Source: Terriglobia bacterium
Lineage (GTDB): Bacteria; Acidobacteriota; Terriglobia; 20CM-2-55-15
Assembly (NCBI GenBank): GCA_036496425.1
Contig: DASXLG010000257.1
Coordinates: 1-40,635 of the forward strand
Direction of reading: 5' to 3'
DNA length: 40,635 bases
Of this stretch, positions 718-35,107 are shown one piece after another. The notes below the pieces were generated by a model. It saw nothing but the letters and a program-made list of their open reading frames with translations. It made no database searches and was not told the origin of the DNA. Positions within the stretch are counted from its first letter, which is position 1. Each line of letters begins with the position of its first letter. Both the position numbers and the translations under genes were made by a program.

Positions 718-1131
718 TCAGTTCGCGGGATTTGCCTTCTTCGAGTCGTCCCACTGCCCGACAACCTTGCCGTCGGCAAACCTGGCTGCGATGAACTCGC
801 CGGCCGGTGAGCCGTCTTTCATCGGATGCATCTTCATTGTGACTTTCGCGCCGGCGGGGAACGTCGATGGGCGATAGCCCTGGCGCCCCAGCGCGTTCGG
901 GCTGCCCCATTCCAGGCTCCATTCCGTCTTCTGACCCTTGGCGTCTTCCACGATCACCTGGATCCAGGTATGGGGATTCTTGAACTGGAACTCTTTTACC
1001 GTACCGCTGATTTCTGCGACTTTGTCGCTGTCGAAACCTGCGCCCGAATGATGCGCCATTACCGGCTGGAGCGCAAAAACCATGCCGGCAAGGACCACAG
1101 CGGCCAAAAGCGGCAGATGAGCTGACTTCAT
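718..1131 (-). CDS. DUF6152 family exported protein
   Basis: A 137-residue protein with a signal peptide (about residues 1-26) ending V-M-A just before HHS, so signal peptidase would leave His-His as the mature N-terminus. The body has the pattern I-S-G-T-V..F.FKNPHTWIQV followed by EWSLEWGSPNALGRQG and a basic-hydrophobic segment, looking like a small beta barrel. It is the first of five members in this window. An internal NPH histidine is shared by most members (ANH in one), suggesting a metal site; that is inferred, since the family's function is unknown. A strong GGAGG lies 9-10 nt before the ATG. It lies 27 nt downstream of the secreted-protein gene at 1159-1956 and is probably co-transcribed with it. 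Confidence 0.8.
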   Translation of the reverse strand: MKSAHLPLLAAVVLAGMVFALQPVMAHHSGAGFDSDKVAEISGTVKEFQFKNPHTWIQVIVEDAKGQKTEWSLEWGSPNALGRQGYRPSTFPAGAKVTMKMHPMKDGSPAGEFIAARFADGKVVGQWDDSKKANPAN

Positions 1132-1158: not shown

Positions 1159-1956
1159 TTATTTAAACGGTTTGCCGTCCGGACCCAGCGTCAGCGTCTT
1201 GCCGGTAACCGTATCGACCGGATTGCGATTGTTTTCGGCGCATCCGTAGTCGTACAGGCGGGTTCCTGCGGGCATCTTCCGGAATTGCTTGGTGACGGCC
1301 CATGGCTTTGTCAAAGCCTTCGGATCTTCAATCGTCATCTGAATTTCAAGGGTGTCCGGGGCGGTCTTGTGGATTCGCGTTGTCGCGTGAGCTTTGTCGC
1401 TGAGAACCAGACCGGTCCGGTCCAGAATGCTGTCGCCGTCGCGATTGCCTTTGATCGCGATGGTGGTAAACACGAGCGCATCGCCTTCCCAGTGCCCCAC
1501 GGAATCTCCGCTGTAGGTTTCCCACTGATCCTCAAGGTGCTTTCGTCCATCGGTATAAATCCGAAAGACGTTGGGGCCGTTTTCCGCCAGAATCCAGGAT
1601 TCTTCCGGCCGAATTACGAATTCATAAGGATCCGGAAGATTGAACATTCGAGGGTAACCCGCGGGCACGCCGCAGTTGGTGAAGACGTCCGGCAGCGATC
1701 CTTTGTCGCGCAGCGCGAGGCTCTTCTCATACATGGCTTCCCACTCCGCATTGTAGGGAGGGTGCTCCCGGACGCCGGGAGTGATCGACCCGCCCTGACC
1801 CGTCTGGGTGGCGCGGTCGAAAACAGTACCGCCCGTCATGGACCAGGCGCCGCTCCAATCCGGCAGCTTGTCGTAGGGGGTCATCGCTCCCTGCCCGTAA
1901 CTCGAGCCTGCCATCAGCAGACAAGCGATGATCATTGATGCGATTCGCTTATTCAT
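1159..1956 (-). CDS. Secreted GxWxG-family protein
   Basis: A 265-residue exported protein, counting from the ATG at 1956; an upstream in-frame start at 1980 would put eight polar residues before the signal peptide. After the signal sequence come PDWSGAW, a conserved Cys-Gly-Val-Pro segment, TDGRKHLEDQWETYSGDSVGHWEGDALVF, a Ser-Asp pair and an EDP...KPW segment. The G-x-W-E-G core and its surroundings recur in the secreted proteins at 24457, 25694 and 28410, so I treat all four as one superfamily common in Acidobacteriota. No enzyme motif is recognised; a lipocalin-like binding fold is possible. It is followed by a DUF6152 gene, a pairing repeated elsewhere in the window. Confidence 0.7.
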   Translation of the reverse strand: MNKRIASMIIACLLMAGSSYGQGAMTPYDKLPDWSGAWSMTGGTVFDRATQTGQGGSITPGVREHPPYNAEWEAMYEKSLALRDKGSLPDVFTNCGVPAGYPRMFNLPDPYEFVIRPEESWILAENGPNVFRIYTDGRKHLEDQWETYSGDSVGHWEGDALVFTTIAIKGNRDGDSILDRTGLVLSDKAHATTRIHKTAPDTLEIQMTIEDPKALTKPWAVTKQFRKMPAGTRLYDYGCAENNRNPVDTVTGKTLTLGPDGKPFK

Positions 1957-2036
1957 GACACCATTCGTTCCTTGATGCAATTTTCCATCAACTTATATAA
2001 CGTTTCCTGCGGCAAATGAAACGTTTTGGAGGTTCG

Positions 2037-12312: not shown

Positions 12313-12597
12313 TATGATCTCTCCACAGAGTTTCAAAGTCGTCGCACTTTAGACCAGAACCGGTGGCATGTCAAACGGACCGTGATTGCAAACGCCGTGC
12401 AAGACTGCAAGTGCATTCGGATAATTGCCTGTCGATCCGGTCACCAACTTGAATTCCAGCTGGGTGCCGGTTATTGAAACTGTCGTCGTTTCAGGAGGAA
12501 AAACCGACTGTGGTATTACCGATGTACACGGCGGGGCGAGTTCAATGTCATCCAACCGAACTGGATACAATAGCAGCCTTGCAGTCGACGATTTTAA
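12313..12597. other. Intergenic region without a supported gene
   Basis: This stretch holds the upstream region of TonB receptor 1. Short frames exist on both strands, including a minus-strand one containing TTVSITGTQLEFKLV, but none has a ribosome site, a recognisable family or a clear start. It may hold a decayed fragment; nothing further can be supported. Confidence 0.4.
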
Positions 12598-13545: not shown

Positions 13546-13911
13546 CTACTTGGTTTCGCAGCACCATTCCTTGCCGTTACCCGTAACCATCTTGGCGAGA
13601 ACACCTTCGGGCTTGCCGTTTTTGGCGGGATAGAGCGTCACGGTGACCTGGTCACCGGCTTTGATGGAGTTGCGGTTCCAGCCGATTCGAGTCCAGTTGA
13701 TGACATTGGGGCCTTCGCCCAGCCAATTGACGGTTCCAGTCTTGCCTGCGACATCGAAGTAAACCAGGACATGAGGATTCACGAACTTGAACATGGTCAC
13801 GGTACCTTTCAGGGTGACGGACTTACTCATGTCGTAAATTGCGGCGGTGCCGTGATGCGCGGTTAGTGGAACGGACAGGAACAGAAAGAAGAGGGCAACG
13901 CGGACGTTCAT
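13546..13911 (-). CDS. DUF6152 family exported protein
   Basis: A 121-residue member with a short signal peptide ending L-T-A before HHG, so the mature protein should again start with His-His. It keeps LKGTVTMFKFVNPHVLVYF with the NPH histidine, then a Trp-rich section (VNWLGEGPNVINWTRIGWN) and a GDQVTVTLYPAKNGKPEG turn. Two cysteines near the C-terminus (EWCCETK) are not found in the other copies and could form a disulfide or a metal site. The ATG overlaps the stop of the Sel1-repeat lipoprotein gene (TAATG), so the two are coupled. Confidence 0.8.
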   Translation of the reverse strand: MNVRVALFFLFLSVPLTAHHGTAAIYDMSKSVTLKGTVTMFKFVNPHVLVYFDVAGKTGTVNWLGEGPNVINWTRIGWNRNSIKAGDQVTVTLYPAKNGKPEGVLAKMVTGNGKEWCCETK

Positions 13912-20700: not shown

Positions 20701-21523
20701 TGGTCGAAGTATATCCCCGGGCTCCGAACTTATCGTTACGGTAGTAATCGAACACGTCACCATGGAATTGATTCGTTCCGGATTTCGTTACGGAAGCCAC
20801 TGTTGCGCCGCCCTGGAATCCGCCACTGGCATTCTGCGCTCCTGTCTGGATACTGAATTCCTGCAACGCATCGGGAAACGGGATTGGAAAGTTGAGGTTG
20901 TCAAAAGGATTGGTATGGAGAGCGCCATCCAAGGTGAATGTCGTCGAGCCTTCCGCCAATCCCTGTATGGACAACCCAACGCCGCCTTGCAGTGAACGCG
21001 TCGACGCGTTACCTGCGGTATCCGGAACGACTCCACCGGAAAGACCGAGCAAATCGGTCGGGTTCCGGCTTTGGAGAGGCAACTCCAGGATTTCCTGGTT
21101 TTCGATCACCTGCCGGACGCCGAGGTTCTGCGTCTCCACCAGCGTGACATTGGCATTGACCTCAACCTCCTGGCTCACCTGGCCGACTGCCATCGTGACG
21201 TTCAGGTTGGGATTCTGGTTAACGCCAAGTTCGATTCCAGTCTGAACAAAAGTGCGAAATCCCGGTAACGCCGCCTCCACCTTGTAAGGGCCTACCGGAA
21301 GATTCGGCAGAACGAAATTGCCGCGTTCGTCACTAACCACCTGGCGGCTGACATTCGTGCTCGTTTGCGTCGCCGTCACTTCCACTCCAGGCAACACCGC
21401 CCCGGAGGGATCCTTAACGGTGCCGTTTATCGTTGCGGTACCTTGAGCTTGCGGTGCAGCTGCGGAGTATCCGAACGTGGAAACGAGCAACAAATATAGC
21501 GTCGTCGCTAAGACACGTTTCAT
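17777..21523 (-). CDS. TonB-dependent Oar-like outer-membrane receptor 2
   Basis: A 1248-residue protein with a signal peptide (ending SAAAPQAQG), a carboxypeptidase-regulatory-like domain (INGTVKDPSGAVLPGVEVTAT to VEAALPGFRTF), a plug region (LELPLQSRNPTDLLGLSGGV; SIQGLAEGSTTFTLDGA) and a beta barrel ending in aromatic residues (DVQFALKYFF). ATG 21523 is supported by AGGAGGAG about seven nt upstream; the longer frame starting at 21598 lacks this. It is the last gene of the long minus-strand cluster, separated from the hydrolase gene by a hairpin, and is the likely outer-membrane entry point of that system. Confidence 0.9.
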   Translation of the reverse strand: MKRVLATTLYLLLVSTFGYSAAAPQAQGTATINGTVKDPSGAVLPGVEVTATQTSTNVSRQVVSDERGNFVLPNLPVGPYKVEAALPGFRTFVQTGIELGVNQNPNLNVTMAVGQVSQEVEVNANVTLVETQNLGVRQVIENQEILELPLQSRNPTDLLGLSGGVVPDTAGNASTRSLQGGVGLSIQGLAEGSTTFTLDGALHTNPFDNLNFPIPFPDALQEFSIQTGAQNASGGFQGGATVASVTKSGTNQFHGDVFDYYRNDKFGARGYTSTTKGSQRRQQIGGTIGGPILKDKLFFFGAYQYTTSTSNPTNSAVTLPTPAMLNGDFSQFLKVYTDSKNQIGGCQSVPINNFAGGTPGQLRLTDSPNFIDPKRFDPAAVKLIHLLPQVNGMQDDVFGATHAPLSLWADNPMQTGHSGTVGNDPCGRVWHTSYNSAHDSQIIGKIDYQKSAKNTITGRFFLTPQLTAVPNTLETSHLGFQDTANLGSNGQDNTGAFFTIGDTYVISPTMINSLNLAANRTFIHREGPFAYDVNDLGINAFTYLKKTFEFAVNSSGGGVGAASGQGGVQTDATNSTNTANISDNISITHGRHQISFGGSIATWKVISYANVRSIPVFSFSPSQTTLDSTSTGLGWADFLLGHWTTLRESAPNGLLMKQWYMGYHVQDQWKATNRLTVNAGVRWEPFFPQQQLDGHIYNFSYQAMLAGQKSQVFSTAPPGFSYPGDPGFPNAQAGLNHNWKTFGPRIGMGFDPKGDGKTAIRASYAISYDFVNGQWNFNTNIAPPFGDDTGTSFGPQSSAATLSNPWAGFHGAGFAPNVSPFPYNNSLSNKSIPFTPFGPFISTPPDLTTTYVQTYSLSVQRQLPANFFVSVQYTGNGTRHGWGTYPLNPGLYVPGTGVSTGGCMVPNGAGGTQSLLVADGQVATLAAARASASPCSSATSLNYRRILSMTNAAVGQYASSLDTFEAGENAQYNGLVLSVRRQAKDLTLNANYTWSHCINDLTGNPALTGMPNVDTGDTYTSINGHDPGTPSTAFFDNNGNWLPGVTGLAAAPVHQHDWNRVNCGTDFRQRFTTTAIAQVPRFSNTLVRGALTGWSVSSIVRANTGSYLTIASGGDTALIGGSTAGQTAIQKLADPYSPGRPTGPRAQYLAPGAFVAASTGALSSNHGKFNIVGPGFWQWDAALSRNFQIKEGQRIQARVDMYNVTNSFRPGNPSTSLTSNYGLITSAVGAAPGSVLNRDVQFALKYFF

Positions 21524-21631
21524 GTAGTCTCCTCCTACCAACCTTCTTGTTAAAAACGAACCTGACTCCACCCGAGAATCTGGCGCGAATTTAAGCACTT
21601 CCCCACAGTGAAGTCAAAGCAATAGAGAGAC

Positions 21632-24456: not shown

Positions 24457-25254
24457 TTATTGTGCCGTACACGGCGTCGGGTTCCAGCCTTGTGCGTCGG
24501 GCAGCTTCCTGTAATGAGAACTCCGGATATGAGGCTGCTGAAGGTAGGTGGGATCTTCGGTCAGCGTGGAAACAACCAGCAACGACCAGGGCTGCGCTCC
24601 CGGCTCGTCATATTTGCTGAAGTATTCCGTGAATACGGCATTCGCGCTGTAGGGAACACCGTTTTTCTGCAGGTATCCCGGCTGCGCGCCTTTCGTCACT
24701 ACTTTCAAGTCGCCCGAGCGATCGGCTCCGCGTCCGGCGGTTTCCCAGCTTGCAACGGAATTGCCCTGCCAGTTTTTGGGATCAGCCGGATTGGGTTTCA
24801 TCTCGGGCGCATTCGTTCCGGTTGCGAAGTGGAACAACCGGGTCTGGTTCCCGTTATCCACTTCGACCTTGAGCGTATTGGCATCGGCCCACGTGATATG
24901 AAAGCGGGCCGGCAATCGCATCACGTTACCCGCGCCGTACGACTTGCATGCATCGCCGCTGGCTTCGTCCTTCGCGGGGTCCCAGGCGTTTGCAAGATCA
25001 CGGCCGGCCGGATTCAAAGGGATGCTGGGAAAATCGCCCTTCTTCGGCGTGATCATGCGCCAGCGCCAGTCTTCCGTGACAAGAGCGACCCAATAGCCGG
25101 TGATATCCACCGGCGCCGCCGCCTGTGCAGGCTGTGCCGCACCACCGCGGTTCCCGCCGCCCCGGCCGCCTCCTCCGCCGCCGCGCTGGGCGTAGAGAGA
25201 ACCTGTTATTGCCAGAGCAACCGTAATGACGAGCGTCAGCTTTCGGGATTTCAT
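24457..25254 (-). CDS. Secreted Gly/Arg-rich GxWxG-family protein
   Basis: A 265-residue exported protein. The signal peptide (1-22, ending LYA) is followed at once by QRGGGGGGRGGGNRGG (about 23-38) and an Ala/Pro linker. The mature domain has VDITGYWVALVTEDWRWRM, ACKSYGAG, HITWADANTLKVEVD and GYLQKNGVPYSANAVFTEYF, followed by TEDPTYL. The GYL-x-x-NG-x-P-x-S stretch and the DP segment match the protein at 25694. I know this type as a common acidobacterial secreted protein without a function. No ribosome site is clear. It lies 14 nt downstream of a DUF6152 gene. Confidence 0.7.
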   Translation of the reverse strand: MKSRKLTLVITVALAITGSLYAQRGGGGGGRGGGNRGGAAQPAQAAAPVDITGYWVALVTEDWRWRMITPKKGDFPSIPLNPAGRDLANAWDPAKDEASGDACKSYGAGNVMRLPARFHITWADANTLKVEVDNGNQTRLFHFATGTNAPEMKPNPADPKNWQGNSVASWETAGRGADRSGDLKVVTKGAQPGYLQKNGVPYSANAVFTEYFSKYDEPGAQPWSLLVVSTLTEDPTYLQQPHIRSSHYRKLPDAQGWNPTPCTAQ

Positions 25255-25268
25255 GACGAAAAACTCGG

Positions 25269-25679
25269 TTAGTCGAAGGTTTCCCCAGGCTTCGTGCCCC
25301 AGCTCAACTCCGGCGTCTCACCGGATGCGGGACGCTTCAAGCCTGTCATGCGCATGCGATGCTCATCGGGATTGCGGCCCGGATTGCCCGTGATGATGAC
25401 GTGGTCGCCAACCTTCAGCGTGTAGCGGTTGATGCCCTGACCACCGAGCTGCCCGGCGCCGCCCCATTCCACACCCCAACGCTGCATGACGCCTTTGGAA
25501 TCCATCGCATCCACCTGGACGAATGAATGGGGATTGCGGAACTGGAACTGGACCAGCGTGCCGTCAATCTTCATCGACTGGTCTTCATGGTACGTCGCCG
25601 CGAACGAATGGTGGGCGTACAGCTGAACACCGGAGACCAGCATGGCAACGGCGAAGAGAGCGAAAAGTGCGCGTTTCAT
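25269..25679 (-). CDS. DUF6152 family exported protein
   Basis: A 136-residue protein. The signal peptide ends L-Y-A before HHSFAATYHEDQS, so the mature end should be His-His-Ser. Then come IDGTLVQFQFRNPHSFVQVDAMD with the shared NPH histidine, VEWGGAGQLGGQGINRYTLKVGDHVIITGNPGRNPDEHRM, and a conserved tail WGTKPGETFD. It is most like the copy at 29918 (same HHSFAATY, GNPGRNP and WGTKPGETFD), so these two are recent paralogues. GGAGGAG sits six nt before the ATG at 25679. It lies between two GxWxG-family genes in one transcription unit. Confidence 0.85.
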   Translation of the reverse strand: MKRALFALFAVAMLVSGVQLYAHHSFAATYHEDQSMKIDGTLVQFQFRNPHSFVQVDAMDSKGVMQRWGVEWGGAGQLGGQGINRYTLKVGDHVIITGNPGRNPDEHRMRMTGLKRPASGETPELSWGTKPGETFD

Positions 25680-25693
25680 GAGTTTCTCCTCCT

Positions 25694-26542
25694 TCACTTA
25701 CCTTTCATTTTGTTTATGTATTCGGGATACATCGTTTGCGGCCCGCCGCGCGTTGCCTCAAACGGAATATCGTGCTTTTCGGCGTACTCATGAAGGTCCG
25801 GGTTTTTGCCGGGCAGCCAGCTCGGCACATAGCCGTACTCATGCGATTCTTCCTCAACAACGCTGCACGGATAGGGCGCCACAAGAGCATTGAGCGACAG
25901 ACGATAGTCCGTGGTCCGGACAAAGGGTTCGGTGAGGTAAACCGGATCGTTCATGATGACAGCTACTGTCAGATAGTCCCCATGACGCGTCCAGTGCTCC
26001 ACGACCGTCGCCTTGTCGCTGCGAGGCAGACCGTTGCGGCGCAGGTACCCTTCTTTGAGATGCGTTATGGTGACCGTTAATGTCTGTCCTTCCCATTTGC
26101 CGGTGGCGAAGCCGCCCCACGTGTGCTCCGCGAAATCCGGAGGGTGAGGACGTCCATCCAGCCAGACGGGCGTGTCCACGGAGCGCAGCCATTCCGTATG
26201 AAATGCCGTGATCTGGCGTGTAACCGGATTGACTTCCTTCGTGATTCGAAGCTGCGATGGTCCGCGCCAGATGTAATCGGCGCTGTGCGGACGGCATTGC
26301 CACTCCGGCAGTGTCTGAACGGATGCCTTCCAGCTATCACCTCTCAGGCGGGCCGCATCGTTGATGGGAATGCCGGTGTAGTCGCCGATCTCGGGTCCGG
26401 CAACGCGTTCCGGCTGGTCTTCGTAGAAGATCGGCTGCCATTCGCCGGAGAAATCCATCTGAGCGAACGCCGGACGCGAAAAAAGGATGGCCGCCACCAA
26501 CAGCAGTGGCGCCATCAGCGCAGTCCGCTTAGCCCTCACCAT
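25694..26542 (-). CDS. Secreted GxWxG-family protein
   Basis: A 282-residue exported protein. The signal peptide ends PAFAQ, followed by MDFSGEWQPIFYEDQPERVAGPEIGDYTGIP, a Cys-Arg-Pro segment, WLDGRPHPP, then FATGKWEGQTLTVTITHLKEGYLRRNGLPRSDKATVVEHWTR and NDPVYL. These elements match the other family members of this window. Several His, Trp and acidic residues are conserved between them, but no catalytic motif is known to me. ATG 26542 is chosen because AGGAGG lies just upstream; an in-frame ATG at 26548 overlaps that site. It is followed 14 nt later by a DUF6152 gene. Confidence 0.7.
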   Translation of the reverse strand: MVRAKRTALMAPLLLVAAILFSRPAFAQMDFSGEWQPIFYEDQPERVAGPEIGDYTGIPINDAARLRGDSWKASVQTLPEWQCRPHSADYIWRGPSQLRITKEVNPVTRQITAFHTEWLRSVDTPVWLDGRPHPPDFAEHTWGGFATGKWEGQTLTVTITHLKEGYLRRNGLPRSDKATVVEHWTRHGDYLTVAVIMNDPVYLTEPFVRTTDYRLSLNALVAPYPCSVVEEESHEYGYVPSWLPGKNPDLHEYAEKHDIPFEATRGGPQTMYPEYINKMKGK

Positions 26543-26610
26543 CGTCATCCTCCTGCCCAAACGGAAGTTCCGACAGACGTTAACACCCTGAATCTGCCAT
26601 GTCAAAACGT

Positions 26611-27165
26611 TTACTGCGGCAGCAGATTCTCGATATTGACGTCATCCGGTTCGGCCGTAACGTTGGGCCGGCCGGTGGTTGTAAAGCCGGTAAAACGGCC
26701 CAGAAATATGATCGCGATCCACAGCACAAGGGAGATCGCCGCCACCGTGCGTCCGGCCAACGGGGCTTTCGCGTCATTGTCCCAACGATGCACGGTGCGG
26801 GCGGCGGTCAACTCGAATACGAGCATGTTGATTCCGGCAAGCATCAACAAAACCATCTTCGTTCGGAAAAAAAAGTTGTGGTAGTACACGGCCGCGTTTG
26901 TGCTGAACATCAGGGAGCCCGTGACGACGGTCAGTCCGAAAGAGGCCCATGTCCATTTAAGGACATCCGACGCGATTCGTCTGAACGAGCGCTTGGTGGA
27001 TGCGATCCCGAGCAAACGCAAATCGATGACTGCAATCGTGCCGAACACCATCGCCAACCCCAGGACGTGGAAGGCCTCGATCAGCGGAAACCAATAGAGA
27101 GAATTGCGGATCGCTTCAGGTACGCTCGAGGATTCGATCGCGGAAAGGATGCCGGGAATGCTCAT
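26611..27165 (-). CDS. DUF6644-like membrane protein, copy 1
   Basis: A 184-residue integral membrane protein with about four helices. The first helix region has WFPLIEAFHVLGLAMVFGTIAVIDLRLLG; the end of the third has ELTAARTVHRWDND. The His in the first helix, the DLR.LG turn and the HRW motif are shared with the next gene upstream (27261-27776). Conserved His in helices of a small four-helix protein could bind heme, as in b-type cytochromes; that is an inference. The family name is from memory. Its ATG is two nt after the stop of an MSGAN micro-ORF. Confidence 0.7.
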   Translation of the reverse strand: MSIPGILSAIESSSVPEAIRNSLYWFPLIEAFHVLGLAMVFGTIAVIDLRLLGIASTKRSFRRIASDVLKWTWASFGLTVVTGSLMFSTNAAVYYHNFFFRTKMVLLMLAGINMLVFELTAARTVHRWDNDAKAPLAGRTVAAISLVLWIAIIFLGRFTGFTTTGRPNVTAEPDDVNIENLLPQ

Positions 27166-27253
27166 CTTTATTCGCTGTTTCGCCCTTTCGTACTCACATT
27201 CGCTCCGCTCATCTTGATTCCCTGTTTCGCCCTGTCGGGCTCACATTCGCTCC
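27160..27253. repeat. Tandem 47-bp repeat containing MSGAN micro-ORFs
   Basis: Two adjacent 47-bp units (27160-27206 and 27207-27253) differ at a few positions, and the first six bases of a third unit follow. Each contains CTCACATTCGCTCC and GTTTCGCCCT. The same word CATTCGCTCCGCTCAT is found at 24418-24433. The units fill the gap between the two DUF6644-like genes. Confidence 0.75.
27168..27212 (-). CDS. MSGAN micro-ORF 2
   Basis: A 14-codon frame, MSGANVSTKGRNSE, whose TAA ends two nt before the ATG of the DUF6644-like gene at 27165. Its start overlaps the stop of the preceding micro-ORF (ATGA). No separate ribosome site is seen, so it would be translated by coupling, if at all. Confidence 0.35.
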   Translation of the reverse strand: MSGANVSTKGRNSE

Positions 27254-27259
27254 GCTCAT
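27209..27259 (-). CDS. MSGAN micro-ORF 1
   Basis: A 16-codon frame, MSGANVSPTGRNRESR, beginning one nt after the stop of the upstream DUF6644-like gene and ending in an ATGA overlap with the next micro-ORF. The tight spacing of one nt, four-nt overlap and two nt across the chain is like translational coupling in an operon. Expression is not shown. Confidence 0.35.
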   Translation of the reverse strand: MSGANVSPTGRNRESR

Positions 27260-27260
27260 G

Positions 27261-27776
27261 TCACGCCTTCGGAGAGAGCGACCAGCTGCCCCAGACATTG
27301 TCATAGGCGATCAGCCGGCCCAGAATGACGATCCCGATCCAGATCAAAAACGTTATGATGGCCAGAGACTTTACGCTCCAGCGATGCAGAGACTTCTCCC
27401 AGTAACTTTCATTTCGTTTGAGCGCGACCTGGAAAACGGATGCGATCAGCGTACCGACCGCCACCAGGAACATCTTCAACCAGAATGAAAATGCCAGAAG
27501 CTCGCGTGCGGGCTCCCCGATAATCATGAAGATACCGGTGGTCAGCAGCACACAAAGCGCGCCGGTCAACCACGGGAAAAAGCGGCCGGTCGTTTCCAGC
27601 AGTGACTGATCCCGCCCCGCCAGGCCGAGGACGCGGAGGTCGATCATGAAGACCGAAGCGAGAACGACGCCGATCGCGGCGATGTGAATGGATTGGATCG
27701 TTGGAATCACCCACTCATGCGTCTTGATGATCAGACTCAGGGATGTCAGGGAAAGCCACTGCGTGAATTGAAACAC
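27261..27776 (-). CDS. DUF6644-like membrane protein, copy 2
   Basis: A 171-residue integral membrane protein related to the gene at 26611. It has TIQSIHIAAIGVVLASVFMIDLRVLG in the first part, three further hydrophobic segments, and HRWSVKSLAIITFLIWIGIVILGR near the end. The His/DLR.LG and HRW positions match those of its neighbour, so they may form a heterodimer. The start is a GTG with CGAGG about nine nt upstream. It is probably the first gene of the 27776-to-21704 transcription unit, just after the large palindrome. Confidence 0.7.
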   Translation of the reverse strand: MFQFTQWLSLTSLSLIIKTHEWVIPTIQSIHIAAIGVVLASVFMIDLRVLGLAGRDQSLLETTGRFFPWLTGALCVLLTTGIFMIIGEPARELLAFSFWLKMFLVAVGTLIASVFQVALKRNESYWEKSLHRWSVKSLAIITFLIWIGIVILGRLIAYDNVWGSWSLSPKA

Positions 27777-27801
27777 TGAAGAATTACCTCGACTTACATA
27801 A

Positions 27802-27906
27802 CTAAGAATTATTGGATCATTGCATCATCTGACGTTTCTTCATTGCTTCAACTTGATGAAATGAAGAACCGTTAAATGATGCAATGATCCAATGTTCTTA
27901 ACTTAG
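27802..27906. repeat. Large nested palindrome (GCATCAT type)
   Basis: ATTGGATCATTGCATCAT (27811-27828) pairs perfectly with ATGATGCAATGATCCAAT (27876-27893), and outer CTAAG/CTTAG ends also pair. Inside, TTCTTCATT (27836-27844) pairs with AATGAAGAA (27860-27868). It lies between the DUF6152 gene ending at 27903 and the DUF6644-like gene starting at 27776 and overlaps the last codons of the former. It may act as terminator or be a mobile palindromic repeat. Confidence 0.7.
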
Positions 27907-28388
27907 AACTCTGACCCGCCGAGCAATTCGTTGCCGGGGACGGAATCGCAATTTTTGCCGGCAGCGGGAAACACCGGCTTGCCGTCTTTGCCCATCGGGC
28001 ACTTGGCGATGGCGCCGGTGCGGGAGCCAAAATTGCTGCCGTCACGCAGGGGATTCACCTTGACGCTGAACACGGTACCCGCGCCAAAACTTTGCGCCGT
28101 AATCCCTTGCTGTGCCACAGCTGCAGCGCCGGCCATCTCGACGCCCCACCGGATCGGCTTTCCATCTTTGTCCCGCTCCGGCTTTCCATCCGGCCCGATC
28201 GGAATGAAGTGGAGTTCGGCATGATTGGCCTGAGCGACGAACTGTATGGCAACGCCGGTCAGCGTTACGGTCTTGGTCTGGTCGTACATTGCAAAGGAAT
28301 GATGCGCCAGCGCGGGTGCGACGAGAAAACCCAGGCAGACAACAGCCGAACAGCCCGCGATCGCAAAGGTTTTGATAACTCGATTCAT
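27903..28388 (-). CDS. DUF6152 family exported protein, long form
   Basis: A 161-residue member with a signal peptide ending A-L-A before HHSFAMYDQTKT. It has LTGVAIQFVAQANHAELHFIPIG, where ANH takes the place of the usual NPH, an insert GPDGKPERDKDGKPIRWGVEM, and a C-terminal extension with two Cys (AKCPMGKDGKPVF and KNCDSVPGNE). These Cys and the insert set it apart from the four shorter copies. AGGAG is seen about eight nt before the ATG. The gene lies 21 nt downstream of the large secreted-protein gene, so the two are likely co-transcribed. The last codons run into the large palindrome. Confidence 0.8.
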   Translation of the reverse strand: MNRVIKTFAIAGCSAVVCLGFLVAPALAHHSFAMYDQTKTVTLTGVAIQFVAQANHAELHFIPIGPDGKPERDKDGKPIRWGVEMAGAAAVAQQGITAQSFGAGTVFSVKVNPLRDGSNFGSRTGAIAKCPMGKDGKPVFPAAGKNCDSVPGNELLGGSEF

Positions 28389-28409
28389 AATAAGCTCCTC
28401 GTATTATTG

Positions 28410-29756
28410 CTATTTCTTTCCGTCCAGGCTGTTCAGCAGGTCCAGCACGTTGGCCGGCAGATCGTCTTGCGGCTTATCCCAGCCGGTTTCAAAATACTTC
28501 TCCCAATTCTGCGCCCATGGCCGGCCGTAGTAGTCGATGAACCGGGGATCGCTCGAGGTAAGCTGAGACGGTCTGCCGTTGACGTTCCGCAGATTGCTGA
28601 GGCATTCGATGTAAGTAAATCGCCGCGTGTCGTTATCAAGGTTCGCGACGCGATTGAATTGCATCGTGAGATGCAGAGGCTGAACAAAAGCCTCCGGATC
28701 ATAAAAGACAGCCTCGTGTTTCAGGCCTGCAAACGCGCCATTGTTTACTATGGGTTCGTAAGTCTCGATGGTCTCCAGTTTGTCGCTGTACTCGAACATC
28801 GAGTGCGACAGCGTCCAGGGCTGGACATTCGCCGTCCAGGTCACCAGCTTGGTTCCATCCCAGAAGCCGACCGTTTCGCCGTACCACTGCGGAACCTTCT
28901 GCACATGCTGCTTGCCGATCAGAACCTGGCGCAGGAAATTGGCCGCGATGCCGGAAAGGAATTGGATATTGCCGACGTTCATCGTCAGCTGGAAGTTCCC
29001 GCCCTGCGACGCTTCCGACCACCAGCGCATGAAGCCCTCGGGATAACAGAACGAAGCGTTCCACTGCGGCGAATTGTCGACGCCTTCGTGATAGTTCATC
29101 TGAACCATGCGCTTCTGGTATTCGGGCGTCAGGAGTGAAAGGATCGTGGGCACCTGGTTGATGGTTCCCCAGGTCCACTGGGAATCCGAGTACGAACGAT
29201 CGCGCGTGTACCAGCCATCCCAATCCGGAATCGTCGCCTTCGTGTAGACTGTCGGACCGCCTTTCGCTTTCGCCGCCGCCATTAAGGCTGCGTAGTGCTC
29301 CTTCGCTGTCTTGTAGGGATAAGGACTGACAATCTTTTCCCGCGGATAATCGATCTTGCAGTCGCCCCAGGAAGCCGAGTTGGGCGGCTTCTCGCCGATC
29401 CGATGCGATGTCCAGATATCCGTGATCTGCCGCGGAGTATTGCAGCGGAAGTAGCGTTGATCCGACCACAGACCGTTGTCTTTATAAAAGTTCTTCGAGG
29501 TGAACATGTCCATCGGCAATGCACTCATTCCGGCCGGTGGGCCCGGGAAAGTCGGAGTGTTTGCGCGACCGCCGCCGCCGCCGCGTCCGCCTCCGCGGCC
29601 GCCACTACCCTGTCCACCTTGTCCGCCGCGTCCCCGCTGCCCACCATTCTGCTGCGCACCTTGCGGCGCCTGGGTGTATGCCGTTGAGGTCAACACGATG
29701 GTGGCGAGCACGGCAAAGGTCGCCGTGACGAGGAAAACGAACAGTCTGGATTTCAT
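28410..29756 (-). CDS. Large secreted Gly/Arg-rich protein, GxWxG-like
   Basis: A 448-residue exported protein. The signal peptide (about 1-29) is followed by NGGQRGRGGQGGQG and further Gly/Arg repeats (about 37-64). The mature part is rich in Trp and Tyr; a C-terminal region has ETVGFWDGTKLVTWTANVQPW, FEYSDKLETIETYEP and FYDPEAFVQPL. This follows the order GxW(D/E)G..L, SD..E, DP of the secreted family at 1159 and 25694, so I place it as a distant, longer member. Its N-terminal half is not recognised. GGGAG lies nine nt before the ATG. It is flanked on both sides by DUF6152 genes. Confidence 0.65.
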   Translation of the reverse strand: MKSRLFVFLVTATFAVLATIVLTSTAYTQAPQGAQQNGGQRGRGGQGGQGSGGRGGGRGGGGGRANTPTFPGPPAGMSALPMDMFTSKNFYKDNGLWSDQRYFRCNTPRQITDIWTSHRIGEKPPNSASWGDCKIDYPREKIVSPYPYKTAKEHYAALMAAAKAKGGPTVYTKATIPDWDGWYTRDRSYSDSQWTWGTINQVPTILSLLTPEYQKRMVQMNYHEGVDNSPQWNASFCYPEGFMRWWSEASQGGNFQLTMNVGNIQFLSGIAANFLRQVLIGKQHVQKVPQWYGETVGFWDGTKLVTWTANVQPWTLSHSMFEYSDKLETIETYEPIVNNGAFAGLKHEAVFYDPEAFVQPLHLTMQFNRVANLDNDTRRFTYIECLSNLRNVNGRPSQLTSSDPRFIDYYGRPWAQNWEKYFETGWDKPQDDLPANVLDLLNSLDGKK

Positions 29757-29850
29757 GGTCTTGACTCCCTATCTCGTTTCACTGCAATCGGTTCGTGGCG
29801 GCAGTATACGACAAACCGTAAACTCGTGGTTCAACAAAGAAATTAGGCCG

Positions 29851-29897
29851 CAAAAGGGGAAAATTCGGGGGTCGCACCCCCGAATTTTCCCCTTTTG
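29851..29897. terminator. Perfect 22-bp palindrome
   Basis: The arms 29851-29872 and 29876-29897 pair over all 22 bases around a three-base loop (CGC). The stem has CAAAAGGGG, then AAAATTC and GGGGGT. It begins about 20 nt after the stop of the DUF6152 gene at 29918 on the minus strand, a good place for a terminator, but no run of T follows on either side. It may be a dispersed palindrome. Confidence 0.7.
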
Positions 29898-29917
29898 TCG
29901 CTAACCCTCTTCCGCGA

Positions 29918-30325
29918 TCAATCAAATGTTTCGCCGGGCTTCGTTCCCCAGGTATAACCGTCGGATGGACGCTGCAGGCGGATCATCCGGAGCCGGTGAT
30001 CTTCGGGGTTCCGTCCCGGATTTCCGACGATGATCACGTGATCGCCGACCTTTAAGGTATCGCGTCCAACGCCCTGACGGCCCAATTGGCCGCCGCCACC
30101 CCATTCCACGGCATACCGGATTAGCTCGCCGTTCGGCTGTTTCACATCAACGTGCACGAACGAATGTGGATTGCGGAAGAGGAACTGAGCCAATTCGCCC
30201 TCGACCTTCTCCTGCTTGTCTTCGAAGTAGGTCGCCGCAAAGGAATGATGCGCGGAGAGTCGCAGCGTCGACAGAGACACCAGCGCCGCAGCGGCAAGCA
30301 GCAGCATGATCCATTTGACCTTCAT
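29918..30325 (-). CDS. DUF6152 family exported protein
   Basis: A 135-residue member with a signal peptide ending L-S-A before HHSFAATYFEDKQ. It then has VEGELAQFLFRNPHSFVHVDVKQ with the NPH histidine, VEWGGGGQLGRQGVGRDTLKVGDHVIIVGNPGRNPEDHRLRM and the tail WGTKPGETFD. It is a close paralogue of the copy at 25269. GGAGGAAGA before the ATG at 30325 supports that start; an upstream in-frame start at 30340 lacks one. It is the most upstream gene of the minus-strand cluster, divergent from the maleate isomerase gene. Confidence 0.85.
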   Translation of the reverse strand: MKVKWIMLLLAAAALVSLSTLRLSAHHSFAATYFEDKQEKVEGELAQFLFRNPHSFVHVDVKQPNGELIRYAVEWGGGGQLGRQGVGRDTLKVGDHVIIVGNPGRNPEDHRLRMIRLQRPSDGYTWGTKPGETFD

Positions 30326-30403
30326 TCTTCCTCCTGGCAACCGGGTTATCCGCAGAATTTCACACCCGATGAACTGTTATGTCAACATCTGAATCTGCCG
30401 TTC

Positions 30404-30414: not shown

Positions 30415-31167
30415 ATGAATCGAACATTTCGCATCGGCCAGATTGTTCCCAGCTCCAACACAACCATGGAGAGCGAGATTCCCGCCATGCTCCACGCCCG
30501 GGAAGCCATAGAACCGGAACGGTTTACATTTCATTCCAGCCGGATGCGAATGAAGAAAGTGACCAAAGAAGAACTGGCTGCGATGGACGCCGACTCCGGC
30601 CGTTGCGCCGCGGAACTGGTGGACGCGCGAGTCGATGTACTGGGCTATGCCTGCCTGGTGGCGATCATGAGCATGGGCAAAGGCTATCACCGAGAGTCCG
30701 AAGAGCGCCTTCACGAAATCACCGTTAAAGAAGGTCACCCGACTCCGGTAGTCACCAGCGCAGGGGCTTTGATCGCAGGCCTCAAGGCGCTGGGCGCGAA
30801 ACGCGTGTCTCTAGTCGCTCCTTATATGAAGGCGCTGACCTGCATGGTCGTCGATTACATCGAGGTCGAAGGCGTTCAGGTTGCCGACAGCATCGCTCTC
30901 GAAATTGCGGACAACGTCGAGGTCGGCCGTCAGGATCCGATGGCGCTGGCCAGAATCTATCGCGATCTGAAACTGACCGGCATCGATGCGCTGGTGCTTT
31001 CCTCCTGTGTTCAAATGCCTTCGCTCGCCGCAGTCCCCATCGTCGAAAACGAATGCGGATTGCCGGTCGTTTCCGCCTCGATCTGCACCACCCATCAAAT
31101 GCTCCAGCGGCTCGGACTCAAAACCGTCGTCCCGAACGCCGGCGCCCTGCTTTCCGGAAAATTTTAG
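30415..31167 (+). CDS. maiA: Maleate cis-trans isomerase
   Basis: A 250-residue enzyme that converts maleate to fumarate, the last step of nicotinate-type degradation through maleamate. It closely matches my memory of proteobacterial maleate isomerases: RIGQIVPSSNTTMESEIPAM, FTFHSSRMRMKKVTKEELAAMDA, VDVLGYACLVAIMSMG with the catalytic Cys80, and VLSSCVQMPS with the second Cys198. It belongs to the Asp/Glu racemase superfamily and is cytoplasmic. No other gene of nicotinate degradation is seen in this window, so the gene stands alone, divergent from the DUF6152 cluster. The high similarity to proteobacterial sequences could mean transfer, which a tree would test. Confidence 0.93.
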   Translation: MNRTFRIGQIVPSSNTTMESEIPAMLHAREAIEPERFTFHSSRMRMKKVTKEELAAMDADSGRCAAELVDARVDVLGYACLVAIMSMGKGYHRESEERLHEITVKEGHPTPVVTSAGALIAGLKALGAKRVSLVAPYMKALTCMVVDYIEVEGVQVADSIALEIADNVEVGRQDPMALARIYRDLKLTGIDALVLSSCVQMPSLAAVPIVENECGLPVVSASICTTHQMLQRLGLKTVVPNAGALLSGKF

Positions 31168-31170
31168 CTG

Positions 31171-31199
31171 TTATTTTTATAACATTGGTGTTATACAAT
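31171..31199 (+). promoter_or_regulatory. BlaI-type promoter/operator of TIGR03435 gene
   Basis: TTATTT (31171-31176) and TACAAT (31194-31199) are 17 nt apart. Within the spacer lies the dyad ATAAC-N6-GTTAT (31179-31183, 31190-31194), which touches the -10 box. The ATG follows the -10 box after eight nt, without a ribosome site. The same layout precedes blaI at 32978-33006. Confidence 0.7.
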
Positions 31200-31207
31200 T
31201 AGCACCA

Positions 31208-32098
31208 ATGAAACAAGCAGCGATCTGGAGTTGCATTTGCGCCGCGATGGTCAGTCTGTTGCTGGCGTCACCGCAAAAATCGACTTTCGATGTGGCGACT
31301 ATAAAAAGCACGTCCGGAAGGCTGCCGAATGGTGCAATTCGCGTAGGAGCTGCTCCAATCGGGCATCCCGCGGCCGCGAGTCCCGGCCGCTTGTACTACG
31401 ATCGCGTTTCGTTGAAGTCCATCCTGCTGGTCGCTTTTTCCCTGAAGGAGATGCAGCTTGTTTGTCCGGACTGGATGGCAAGCGAATACTACGAGATCGA
31501 TGCCCGCATGCCGGTGGGAACGACACCGGAACGGATTCAGACGATGCTTCAGAACCTGCTCGTCGAACGATTCAAAATGACGCTCCATCGAGAGGTCAGA
31601 GAGACCGACGCCTACCGGCTGGTCGTTGCGAAAGGCGGCCCGAAGCTGAAGGAGGTCGAAGCCCCCAAAAGCAACGTTGTTATTCCGCCGCGTGGTCCAG
31701 TCCAGCGCGACGCAGACGGCTGGATGATCGCCCCCCGACGCCCGGGGCCCTTCGCGGACGATCGTTCGGATCGCAGCCGCTGGACGTTTCAGCAATCCCG
31801 CGTGACCGAGTTGGCAACGGCGCTGGAGCGGCGACTGAATCAGCCCGTCACCGATGCGACATCGCTGAAAGGGAACTACGACTTTACGCTGACATTCTCT
31901 GCCGATGGATTGCCCACGCTACTCGACCCACTAGGCTTTCCCGTCGCTCCTCCGATTGGAGTCGTACCGCAACCATTGGATCTCTCAAACGTCTTCACGG
32001 CTCTGGAGCAACAGATCGGACTCAAGCTCGAACGGACAAAAGGTTCCATCGATGAGCTTGTGATCGATCAGGCCACGAAAACGCCCGGCTCGAACTGA
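31208..32098 (+). CDS. TIGR03435 family exported protein
   Basis: A 296-residue protein of a family expanded in soil Acidobacteriota and without a known function. A signal peptide (about residues 1-20) is followed by STFDVATIKST, the typical FDVA.IK motif, then SLKSILLVAFSLKEMQLVCPDWM, RIQTMLQNLLVERFKMTLHRE, VVAKGGPKLKE, TSLKGNYDFTLTFS and ALEQQIGLKLERTKG.IDELVIDQ, all expected in family order. The start is set by the promoter and signal peptide; a longer open frame upstream overlaps the maleate isomerase gene and is not real. It heads a group with a second family member, blaI and an M56 gene, and shares its operator with blaI. Confidence 0.88.
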   Translation: MKQAAIWSCICAAMVSLLLASPQKSTFDVATIKSTSGRLPNGAIRVGAAPIGHPAAASPGRLYYDRVSLKSILLVAFSLKEMQLVCPDWMASEYYEIDARMPVGTTPERIQTMLQNLLVERFKMTLHREVRETDAYRLVVAKGGPKLKEVEAPKSNVVIPPRGPVQRDADGWMIAPRRPGPFADDRSDRSRWTFQQSRVTELATALERRLNQPVTDATSLKGNYDFTLTFSADGLPTLLDPLGFPVAPPIGVVPQPLDLSNVFTALEQQIGLKLERTKGSIDELVIDQATKTPGSN

Positions 32099-32113
32099 GA
32101 GAGGTATCATGAC

Positions 32114-32895
32114 ATGACAGCAAACCCGAAAAGTATCTGCCTGCTGCTCGTCCTTACATTTTCCACGATAGCCACTGTCCCTTCGGTCTTGTCTCAGAGG
32201 AATGAACTGGCCCAAGGTCCGATGGCATTCGAGGTGCCTCCGTCAAGGTCGCGGATCCGCATGGCGGCCCTACTGGTATTTTCAGAGAGGGAGACAAGTT
32301 TTACGCTAACAACGCCACGTTAAACATGCTCGTTGGTTATGCGTACGACCTGCGGCCATTCCAGGTGTCTGGAGGTCCCAAGTGGAGTGAGTCTCGTCCA
32401 TTCACAATCGTCGCCAATGTGCCCCCGGGGACGGCCGCCCCACAGACGACAATGGGGCGCCAGCAATTGGGCCAGATGTTGCAGGCCTTGCTCCGCGACC
32501 GGTTCAAGATGATCGTGCGCAGCGAGTCCAAAATGGAAACTGTTTACGAACTGGTCGTTTACAAGGGAGGCTCAAAGCTCAAAGAAGCGAAGGCGGATGG
32601 AACCAACACTAGCATTCGCAGCGGACCTCGACAGATCCTGGGCTTAGCTGCGAGGATGGATCCGTTGGCTCGGCTGTTATCCCAGCAGGTCGGCCGCCCC
32701 GTCACAAACAAGACAGGGTTGACCGGCCGGTACGACTTCACTTTGACCTTCGAGCCGGAGCTGACAACGGCTGCCACTGCAGTCCCTTCGATATTTGTTG
32801 CCCTGGAGGAACAGCTGGGCCTGGAACTGAAGACCGTCCGCGGGCCTGTAGATGCCCTTGTTATTGTAAGTGCCGAAGAGCCCAGCGAGAACTGA
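32114..32895 (+). pseudogene. Frameshifted TIGR03435 gene
   Basis: A second family member, 15 nt after the first, broken by one missing base near 32236-32238. The first frame gives a signal peptide and MAFEV, then turns to nonsense (PPSRSRIRM) and stops at 32323. The other frame continues as SVKVADPHGGPTGIFREGDKFYANNATLNMLVGYAYD, exactly what the family should have after FEV(A). From 32326 onward the frame is intact to AEEPSEN, with LLRDRFKMIVRSESK, TGLTGRYDFTLTFEPE and ALEEQLGLELKTVRGPVDALVI. A ribosome site GAGAGG precedes the start. It could be a true pseudogene, an assembly error or, less likely, programmed frameshifting. Confidence 0.85.
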
Positions 32896-32977
32896 GTGGG
32901 AACGCTGTTATGCTAACCCGCTTCTGTCCTGCAACACCCTTGAGCTTCCCAGAATCTTCTCATAGACTTTTGATGTG

Positions 32978-33006
32978 TTAGTTTTATAACGTTTATGTTA
33001 TTCAAT
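32978..33006 (+). promoter_or_regulatory. BlaI-type promoter/operator of blaI
   Basis: TTAGTT (32978-32983) and TTCAAT (33001-33006) are 17 nt apart, with the dyad ATAAC-N6-GTTAT (32986-32990, 32997-33001) in between. The ATG at 33015 follows after eight nt. The block from the dyad through the first codons is almost the same as at 31179-31216, which supports a common regulator, most simply BlaI itself. Confidence 0.72.
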
Positions 33007-33014
33007 TAGCACCA

Positions 33015-33404
33015 ATGAAACAACCGCTACATTCTGCACTCAGCCGCCGCGAGCGGCAGATCATGGACATCCTGTACCGGCTGGGCCGCGCCACCGCAAA
33101 TGAAGTGATGGCGGATCTGTCCGGCGAGCCGAATTACTCGACGGTTCGCACGCAGCTTCGCGTGCTCGAAACCAAGGGGCACGTGCGGCATGAGGAAGAG
33201 GGACTTCGTTACATCTACTTCCCGACGGCGCCGCGGCACAGCGTACGCCAGTCAGCGGTGAAGCATCTCATCGAGACCTTCTTCGGTGGGTCGGCCGAGA
33301 AGATGATGTCGACTCTCCTGGGAAGCGAAGGCTCGAAGCTGTCGGACGAAGACCTTGACCGCCTGGCGAAACTTATCGAAAACACGAGAAAGGGCAGGCG
33401 ATGA
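33015..33404 (+). CDS. blaI: BlaI/MecI/CopY-family repressor
   Basis: A 129-residue repressor: LSRRERQIMDILYRLGRATANEVMADLSGEPNYSTVRTQLRVLETKGHVRHEEEGLRYIYFPT is the typical winged-helix domain (about residues 8-75), followed by a dimerisation tail ending KLIENTRKGRR. BlaI proteins bind dyads at promoters and are released when the partner M56 membrane peptidase signals their cleavage. The gene has its own operator and overlaps the M56 gene by four nt (ATGA), the usual pair. Targets probably include the TIGR03435 genes just upstream. Here beta-lactams are unlikely to be the signal, since no beta-lactamase gene is near. Confidence 0.92.
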   Translation: MKQPLHSALSRRERQIMDILYRLGRATANEVMADLSGEPNYSTVRTQLRVLETKGHVRHEEEGLRYIYFPTAPRHSVRQSAVKHLIETFFGGSAEKMMSTLLGSEGSKLSDEDLDRLAKLIENTRKGRR

Positions 33405-35107
33405 TTCTCGCAATCCTGCAATCATCCGTGATTGTGATCATCGCGTTTGGAGCGGTTTGGATGGCGCGCAAGCAATCCGCGGCCTTGCGCCACGTGATCC
33501 TCACGGTGGCATTGTTCGCGTCGCTGATTGTCCCCTTCATCGGCGCGCTCCTCCCGGAACGCGCCCCCCGGCCTTCGCTTCACGTAGTCGCGAGCTTTAG
33601 CCCGCGTTCAGCCGCACTGACGCAAGGGGCGCGGGCTGAAGCCCGCGACTACACAAGAATCGCCGTTGTTTCAGAGTCCGGACATTCATATGCATTTGTG
33701 ACCTGGATTGTTGGGATCAGCATAACGTTGGCGCTCATCCTCACAGGCATGTTGCGCCTCGCCTGGCTCGTGCGTCATGCCCGGCCTTTCCCCGGCGAGT
33801 ATCCCTTCCGCATGAAGCGCGATGTCCGGATACTCCGAAGCAATTCCTCGGTCCTCGGCACCTGGGGTGTCCTACGGCCCTGCATTCTGCTTCCGGGCAG
33901 TTCGGAGAAATGGTCCGGTGATCGTCTGCAGGCGGTGCTGACTCACGAACTCGCGCACATCACGCGTTTCGACTGGCCGGTCCAGATGCTTGCCGAAATT
34001 GCGCGGGCCGTTTACTGGTTCAACCCGTTGTTCTGGTTTCTCTGCCGCCGGCTTCGCGCGGAAAGCGAGCACGCCTGCGACGACGCCGTGTTGAACACTG
34101 GAATCTCCGCGACCGATTACGCAACGCACTTGCTCGAACTCGCGCGCACGTTGAGAGGCTCCACCCAAACCTGGGCTCCTGTACTGGCAATGGCCAGGCC
34201 ACCGCATGTTGAAAGGAGATTTGTCGCCATGCTGAATCCGTCCATCAATCGCAAACAGGTAAGCCGCAGAATCATTTTTATCGCCGGTATTCTTGCGCTG
34301 TTGATCACTCTGCCGATCGGGGCTGTCCGGGCAGGCCAGGACAGCAAGCCTGCTGTCCTTTCGGAAATCGTTACGGTCGTAAAACCGGCAGAGTCGCCCG
34401 CGCCGGCTCCCCCTCCAGCGGTTAAAAGAGCGGCGCCGCGGGTGAAGCCGGTGCAGGGCCTCGCAGACGGGAGCCTGTCCGGAACTATTTCGGATGCAAC
34501 CGGCGCAGTGATTCCGGGCGTTAGCGTAACCGTGTCGAGCAGAACGGTCAGCCAAAATGCGGTCACCGAGACCGACGTGCAAACAACAACGACCAATGAG
34601 GTCGGTAGTTATGAATTTCGCGGATTGACCCCCGGCCCATACATCATGAAAGCGATGCTGCCCGGCTTTGCGCTGTTTCGATCTGGCGCGCTGCAGATAA
34701 CCTTCGGACAGAACGTAGTCGAGAACGCTACCCTGTCCATCGGCAGCATGCTGCAGCGGGTGGAACTTACGGTTGCCGGACAGGCCAGACCAAGGACTGT
34801 CTCAACCAATGGTCCTGTCCGTATCCGCGTCGGGGGAAATGTCGTGGCTGCCAGACTCATCACTCAGGTCAAGCCGTACTACCCGGAGGAGGCAAAGGAG
34901 GCCGGCATCGAAGGCATCATTCACCTTCAAGGTTTCATCGGAAAGGACGGAACACTGATCGGTTTGAACGCGACGAATAACATCAACTATCTGAGCAAAG
35001 CCGCCCTCGAAGCCGTCAACCAGTGGCGCTACTCGCCGTCGCTTCTCAACAACGAACCGGTTCAGGTCCCCACATCCATCGACATCGAATTCAAATTGGA
35101 ACAGTAA
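33401..35107 (+). CDS. M56 peptidase-CarboxypepD_reg-TonB_C fusion
   Basis: A 568-residue membrane protein of three modules. The BlaR1-like M56 part (about residues 1-310) has transmembrane helices, the zinc motif HELAH near 183-187 and EHACDD near 222. After a helix near 295 and a proline-rich linker (ESPAPAPPPAVK) comes a carboxypeptidase-regulatory-like beta domain (about 355-435, SGTISDATGAVIPGVSVTVS), then a TonB C-terminal domain (about 480-566, TQVKPYYPEEAKEAGIEGIIHLQGFIGKDG). Usual BlaR1 proteins carry a penicillin-binding domain instead, so the sensed ligand is likely different. Residues about 62-84 are encoded by an inserted palindromic repeat. It is coupled to blaI. Confidence 0.9.
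   Translation: MILAILQSSVIVIIAFGAVWMARKQSAALRHVILTVALFASLIVPFIGALLPERAPRPSLHVVASFSPRSAALTQGARAEARDYTRIAVVSESGHSYAFVTWIVGISITLALILTGMLRLAWLVRHARPFPGEYPFRMKRDVRILRSNSSVLGTWGVLRPCILLPGSSEKWSGDRLQAVLTHELAHITRFDWPVQMLAEIARAVYWFNPLFWFLCRRLRAESEHACDDAVLNTGISATDYATHLLELARTLRGSTQTWAPVLAMARPPHVERRFVAMLNPSINRKQVSRRIIFIAGILALLITLPIGAVRAGQDSKPAVLSEIVTVVKPAESPAPAPPPAVKRAAPRVKPVQGLADGSLSGTISDATGAVIPGVSVTVSSRTVSQNAVTETDVQTTTTNEVGSYEFRGLTPGPYIMKAMLPGFALFRSGALQITFGQNVVENATLSIGSMLQRVELTVAGQARPRTVSTNGPVRIRVGGNVVAARLITQVKPYYPEEAKEAGIEGIIHLQGFIGKDGTLIGLNATNNINYLSKAALEAVNQWRYSPSLLNNEPVQVPTSIDIEFKLEQ
33584..33652. repeat. Palindromic REP element inside M56 gene
   Basis: The arms 33584-33606 and 33630-33652 form a 23-bp inverted repeat with two mismatches; the core is GTCGCGGGCTTCAGCCCGCG as read from the right arm. 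The element is 69 bp, a multiple of three, and stays in frame. It codes for a stretch (SFSPRSAALTQGARAEARD) between the second and third helices. A half copy is at 143-168. Confidence 0.8.

Follow-up and report, generated by a model that had tools for sequence, protein, structure and literature searches.

DUF6152 proteins as putative exported OB-fold metal-binding proteins with a conserved His-His N-terminus and a dedicated partner family

The proteins of the DUF6152 family (PF19649) are probably exported metal-binding proteins, in which an OB-fold domain uses its own N-terminal histidines and operates with a dedicated partner; we hold this reading with rather more confidence than doubt. Motif, conservation, coupled loss of histidines, predicted fold and gene linkage were established by computation, and from them we infer cleavage, metal binding, the geometry of the site and function as follows. 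A DUF6152 protein would be exported and then cut by signal peptidase I just ahead of a His-His pair, whereupon the free N-terminal His1 and His2 would meet the invariant His29 where the chain turns into strand 2. The three histidines would jointly hold a transition metal ion in a histidine-brace-like manner, copper being the likeliest metal and nickel or zinc possible. The protein would act outside the cytoplasm with its secreted partner, to which it is at times fused, by capturing metal, by delivering it to the partner or through a metal-dependent action with the partner, and a CopD-like DUF6644 membrane pair may join in a smaller share of the operons. Catalysis is a somewhat less likely role than capture or delivery. 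Pfam gives no function for DUF6152, and a literature search found no mention of the family.

The window, that is, the whole stretch of 40,635 nucleotides that was analysed, encodes five DUF6152 proteins, all on the minus strand and all scoring as members (55-101 bits against a cut-off of 27). Together with partner genes and a tandem pair of DUF6644 genes, which is placed between the partner gene at 25694 and the DUF6152 gene at 27903, they are as follows (mature chains are predicted).

718..1131, minus strand: DUF6152 protein (PF19649, E 3.6e-29), mature chain 721-1053
1159..1980, minus strand: partner protein adjoining the 718 DUF6152 gene (partner HMM, E 3.5e-43)
13546..13911, minus strand: DUF6152 protein (PF19649, E 1.3e-25), mature chain 13549-13857
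24457..25254, minus strand: partner protein downstream of the 25269 DUF6152 gene (partner HMM, E 7.9e-8)
25269..25697, minus strand: DUF6152 protein (PF19649, E 8.7e-23), mature chain 25272-25613
25694..26605, minus strand: partner protein adjoining the 25269 DUF6152 gene (partner HMM, E 2e-29)
26611..27165, minus strand: DUF6644 membrane protein of the tandem pair (PF20349, E 2.1e-10)
27261..27776, minus strand: DUF6644 membrane protein of the tandem pair (PF20349, E 3.2e-13)
27903..28388, minus strand: DUF6152 protein with ANH replacing NPH (PF19649, E 6.8e-15), mature chain 27906-28304
28410..29756, minus strand: partner protein between the 27903 and 29918 DUF6152 genes (partner HMM, E 9.2e-12)
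29918..30340, minus strand: DUF6152 protein (PF19649, E 2.3e-20), likely start ATG 30325, mature chain 29921-30250

The initial annotation of this DNA had pointed to an A-x-A-like signal site followed by HH in all five DUF6152 proteins, and every one of the sequences bears this out, with HH immediately after VMA, LTA, LYA, ALA or LSA. The His of an NPH motif (ANH in the protein at 27903) follows at about mature residue 28-29, and both AHH and this His are invariant in an alignment of the five proteins. For the protein at 25269 the best start is ATG 25679, the signal peptide is predicted to end in LYA and the mature chain to begin with HHSF, and codon 25527-25529 encodes the NPH His as mature residue 29. 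An ANH or AAH variant is likewise found in the DUF6152 members L073 and L104. The protein at 27903 was also considered as a lipoprotein modified at Cys13, which was judged unlikely because the preceding hydrophobic stretch would be too short. The gene at 13546 adjoins that of a Sel1-repeat protein.

The wider family supports, as a prediction, the mature His-His N-terminus that had been proposed. An alignment of 161 distinct members on His-His shows Ala, Gly or Ser at -1 in every one and Ala, Leu or Val at -3 in 150; Pro is the most frequent residue at -4, and most signals have a length of 18-28 residues. This signature matches what signal peptidase I normally recognises, and it puts the predicted cut directly before His-His. 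When the five window proteins were checked with a simple rule-based scan, the HH site was returned, among other candidates, in four, and the exception at 29918 failed the rule solely through the Arg at -4 (TLRLSA), a residue that is tolerated at that position of a signal peptidase site. According to the main text of a 2025 survey of N-terminal-His metalloproteins (PMC12537917), the first mature residue of secreted proteins is rarely His (2.6%). Because His is rare there and DUF6152 relatives are often about 30% identical, the near-total conservation of His-His is not a matter of chance.

Domains gathered from the window's genome, its relatives and named genomes gave 395 distinct DUF6152 domains with readable positions; L438, in which the NPH region reads X owing to masked bases, was excluded from the counts. 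All three histidines are kept in 386/395, so that conservation of HH and NPH is high rather than poor across the family, and the NPH His, already noted as kept in the window, accompanies His-His in 386/386 members having it. No domain has His-His without His29, and among the nine that have lost His-His, four retain His29 and five do not. Loss of His29 in 0/386 domains with His-His versus 5/9 without it corresponds to a Fisher probability of 1.6e-9, a value that overstates the significance because kinship is ignored. Since the alignment patterns of the collection scan favour HH or NPH, Pfam-based and N-terminus-blind searches were added as checks. An HMM built without the N-terminus found no additional HH-less members in the searched loci, and the His-His result is therefore not a product of the search.

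The only single-domain protein without the histidines is the very divergent L425, in which all three are missing. The other eight members lacking His-His (L053, L062, L063, L066, L194, L204, L211 and L213) are fusion proteins, and their predicted mature start is mostly Gln, a residue that could cyclise at the N-terminus. A column-by-column check found that all eight keep G18, V20, W25, P28, W46, E49, L56, G60, W61 and G69, with His1 present in 0/8, His2 in 3/8 and His29 in 4/8. Because these fold-defining columns are intact, the set of histidines has been lost selectively, and E49, retained in all eight, was set aside as a metal ligand. A tree of 47 fusions requires a minimum of five changes of His-His and three of His29, and every His29 change falls inside a lineage without His-His; a phylogeny-aware independent-pairs test counted 1-2 concordant and 0 discordant changes, which is not significant with so few pairs. 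The coupled loss indicates that the three histidines evolve as one unit, as is expected for one metal site, which His1, His2 and His29 may together form, judging from the sequences. If so, the members that have the fold and lack His-His would be ready-made natural controls, equivalent to metal-site knock-outs. A free N-terminal His is by nature a strong metal chelator.

With the mature 25269 protein and 123 relatives as input, AlphaFold2 gave a model of mean pLDDT 86.1 (residues 11-90 average 94-97 per block), with the element order b1-b2-b3-a-b4-b5, strands 3 and 4 flanking the helix. Foldseek lists OB-folds as its PDB matches, namely single-stranded DNA-binding proteins, lysyl-tRNA synthetases (anticodon-binding domain), PriB and exonuclease VII. 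A model of a DUF6152 fusion protein (pLDDT 92.7, pTM 0.87) shows the same barrel, and its listed PDB matches are essentially OB-folds. As modelled, DUF6152 is thus a five-stranded OB-fold barrel, in agreement with the small beta barrel suggested in the initial annotation. A search of the PDB with the DUF6152 profile gave one weak adhesin match and nothing informative.

In the model, His29 sits at the turn into strand 2. Covarying pairs among the members with all His intact (12-78, 7-79, 8-47, 8-31 and 9-27) give indirect evidence that the N-terminal segment lies next to the 4-5 loop and to where strand 2 begins, and this covariation earns some credit because the same calculation recovers the expected strand pairings 31-47 and 70-93. 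Between columns that hardly vary, the pairs 1-29 and 2-29 among them, covariation is unreliable alone, and the signals between the invariant columns 1-29, 1-69 and 2-60 in the His-intact set were regarded as artefacts and not used.

The proposed ligands, a free N-terminal His and an internal His, resemble those of the copper histidine brace of LPMOs and CopC (PMC10952591). However, LPMOs and CopC are immunoglobulin-like beta sandwiches with one N-terminal His, whereas DUF6152 has two consecutive conserved ones, and its predicted fold is not that of CopC or LPMOs, because both the element order of the AlphaFold2 model and the listed Foldseek matches are those of an OB-fold. In DUF4198, DUF6702 and the anglerases, the signal ends right before a conserved His, and the site is completed by histidines inside the chain, namely His18 in DUF4198 and His28 and His32 in DUF6702; these proteins are secreted and have metal-binding or transport roles (PMC12537917). 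DUF6152 is likewise predicted to be exported and cut before a conserved His, with an internal His as proposed further ligand. The N-terminal-His families described there are beta-sandwich or immunoglobulin-like proteins with one such His, in contrast to the predicted OB-fold and two histidines of DUF6152, and their N-terminal His is conserved at 79% in DUF4198 and 65% in DUF6702, as against near-totally in DUF6152. Four families found by the N-terminal-His criterion bind transition metals experimentally, with Ni or Cu measured, according to the same survey, from whose main text DUF6152 is absent; its supplement may include it.

CusF and SilF, like DUF6152, are small periplasmic five-stranded OB-fold barrels associated with a metal ion, which in DUF6152 is a proposal, and they have been termed the sole OB-fold proteins with metal-ion binding as their only function (PMC10656224). 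In these two proteins methionines, with a Trp close by, make up the site, for which a free N-terminus is unnecessary (PMC10656224), whereas the site of DUF6152 is proposed to be N-terminal. Neither CusF nor SilF occurs among the PDB matches of the DUF6152 profile, and there is no Met among the conserved DUF6152 columns. Because CusF and SilF, the only OB-folds so described, use a different site, an N-terminal-His site on this fold would be new if the proposal is right; no report of such a site on an OB-fold scaffold was found.

A long C-terminal extension is present in 25 of the first 169 DUF6152 ORFs. It is mostly a domain of about 230 residues starting with PRWPDG, which is also encoded by free-standing genes, and its family is characterized by the motifs PRWPDG...WEGDTLVV...DDPxAY and by two invariant Cys, which suggest a disulfide. 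A partner gene lies within 2.5 kb of 32/46 single-domain DUF6152 copies in the window's genome and of 85/98 elsewhere, compared with a single partner gene across 328 kb of control DNA taken from the window's genome, and the order fusion, single DUF6152, partner is recurrent. Pfam gave no credible match for any of the 59 partner members examined, and a PDB profile search gave no match; the partner thus belongs to a secreted family that is undescribed and has neither a Pfam model nor a solved relative. The dedicated partners and the fusions speak for DUF6152 being a module that acts with its partner. Matches to the fusion profile number 101 in the window's genome and 118-155 in most close relatives. 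DUF6152 matches number 51 in the window's genome and 36-97 in other members of the genus, with none in most families of the class to which the window's genome belongs, and a fusion-type alignment matched 14/149 sampled genomes of the phylum. Named DUF6152 loci belong to Acidobacteria (gp5, gp6, Bryobacterales and Vicinamibacteria) and Gammaproteobacteria; one locus, L103, stands in a record titled as a Bordetella parapertussis MAG, probably a misnamed environmental bin.

The role of the site can be judged partly from the neighbouring genes. In copper import of the CopC/CopD kind, DUF6152 would pass copper to the DUF6644 membrane pair, and the adjacency of such a pair to DUF6152 at 9/24 loci, other genomes included, would agree with this (about 6e-5 under an assumed 8% background, for loci chosen among the best matches, a selection that counts against the reading). 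A weak similarity to CopD is seen in 3/24 DUF6644 members, one His is invariant in DUF6644, and the member at 27261 matches CopD (PF05425) at E 0.0011, under the CopD cut-off. Copper supply through YcnJ requires CopC and CopD sites (PMC13344008). However, the window's genome has only 6 DUF6644 matches against its 51 of DUF6152, and the association therefore concerns a subset of DUF6152. Import as a general role was rejected because DUF6644 genes are too few, and as an account of the family it is unlikely, although the DUF6644 pair makes metal transfer plausible in some cases. No established copper genes were found near DUF6152, the CopD similarity of DUF6644 being below the cut-off. An improbable reading is that the histidines have a structural role, or bind haem or a non-metal ligand, the barrel being a ligand-binding OB-fold of the ordinary kind. 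Usual ligands of OB-folds are nucleic acids, sugars or peptides, and CcmE, a periplasmic haem chaperone, is among the weak fold matches, but only the histidines are lost jointly while the fold columns stay, and the cleavage site is conserved exactly ahead of His1.

A catalytic site has a modest chance of being correct, short of likely. DUF6152 would then be a small redox enzyme that depends on a metal and resembles oxygenases or peroxygenases, and its paralogues and partners would provide a range of substrates. The 36-97 copies per genome and the diverse partner family fit this, up to 97 copies being unusual for a simple metal chaperone, and by analogy such numbers argue for a resemblance to substrate-diversified systems more than to a household chaperone. 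AA9 LPMO genes can number up to 60 in fungi (PMC10354095), and the LPMO expansions of wood-decay fungi offer a parallel; known N-terminal-His sites range over transport and catalysis (PMC10952591). PQQ dehydrogenases and cytochromes c occur among some DUF6152 neighbours, but these counts are small and unspecific, the sequence suggests no substrate, and DUF4198 and DUF6702 showed little if any activity as oxidases or peroxidases (PMC12537917). A bolder version, which we consider doubtful, is that of a new class of OB-fold metalloenzymes with a double-His N-terminal site and partners, kept in about a hundred copies for many environmental substrates; such a class would be an independent bacterial counterpart of the LPMO expansions.

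If the preferred reading, a metal-binding protein acting with a dedicated partner, is right, a hitherto unstudied family with 36-97 copies per genome in several Acidobacteria lineages would be a metal-binding family, and it would provide a first handle on the partner family, which is more numerous than DUF6152 and has no Pfam model. Elsewhere in the window, the minus strand encodes two large barrel proteins of the outer membrane (8344-12336 and 17777-21598) that carry carboxypeptidase-regulatory domains and OMP_b-brl_4, one of them with a TonB plug match. An 809-residue protein at 15259-17688 (plus strand) has as its sole match a short spermine-synthase-like domain (residues 519-647). At 30986-35107 (plus strand), two DUF3738 genes precede an M56 (BlaR1-like) peptidase that is unusual in being fused to both a carboxypeptidase-regulatory domain and a TonB C-terminal domain.
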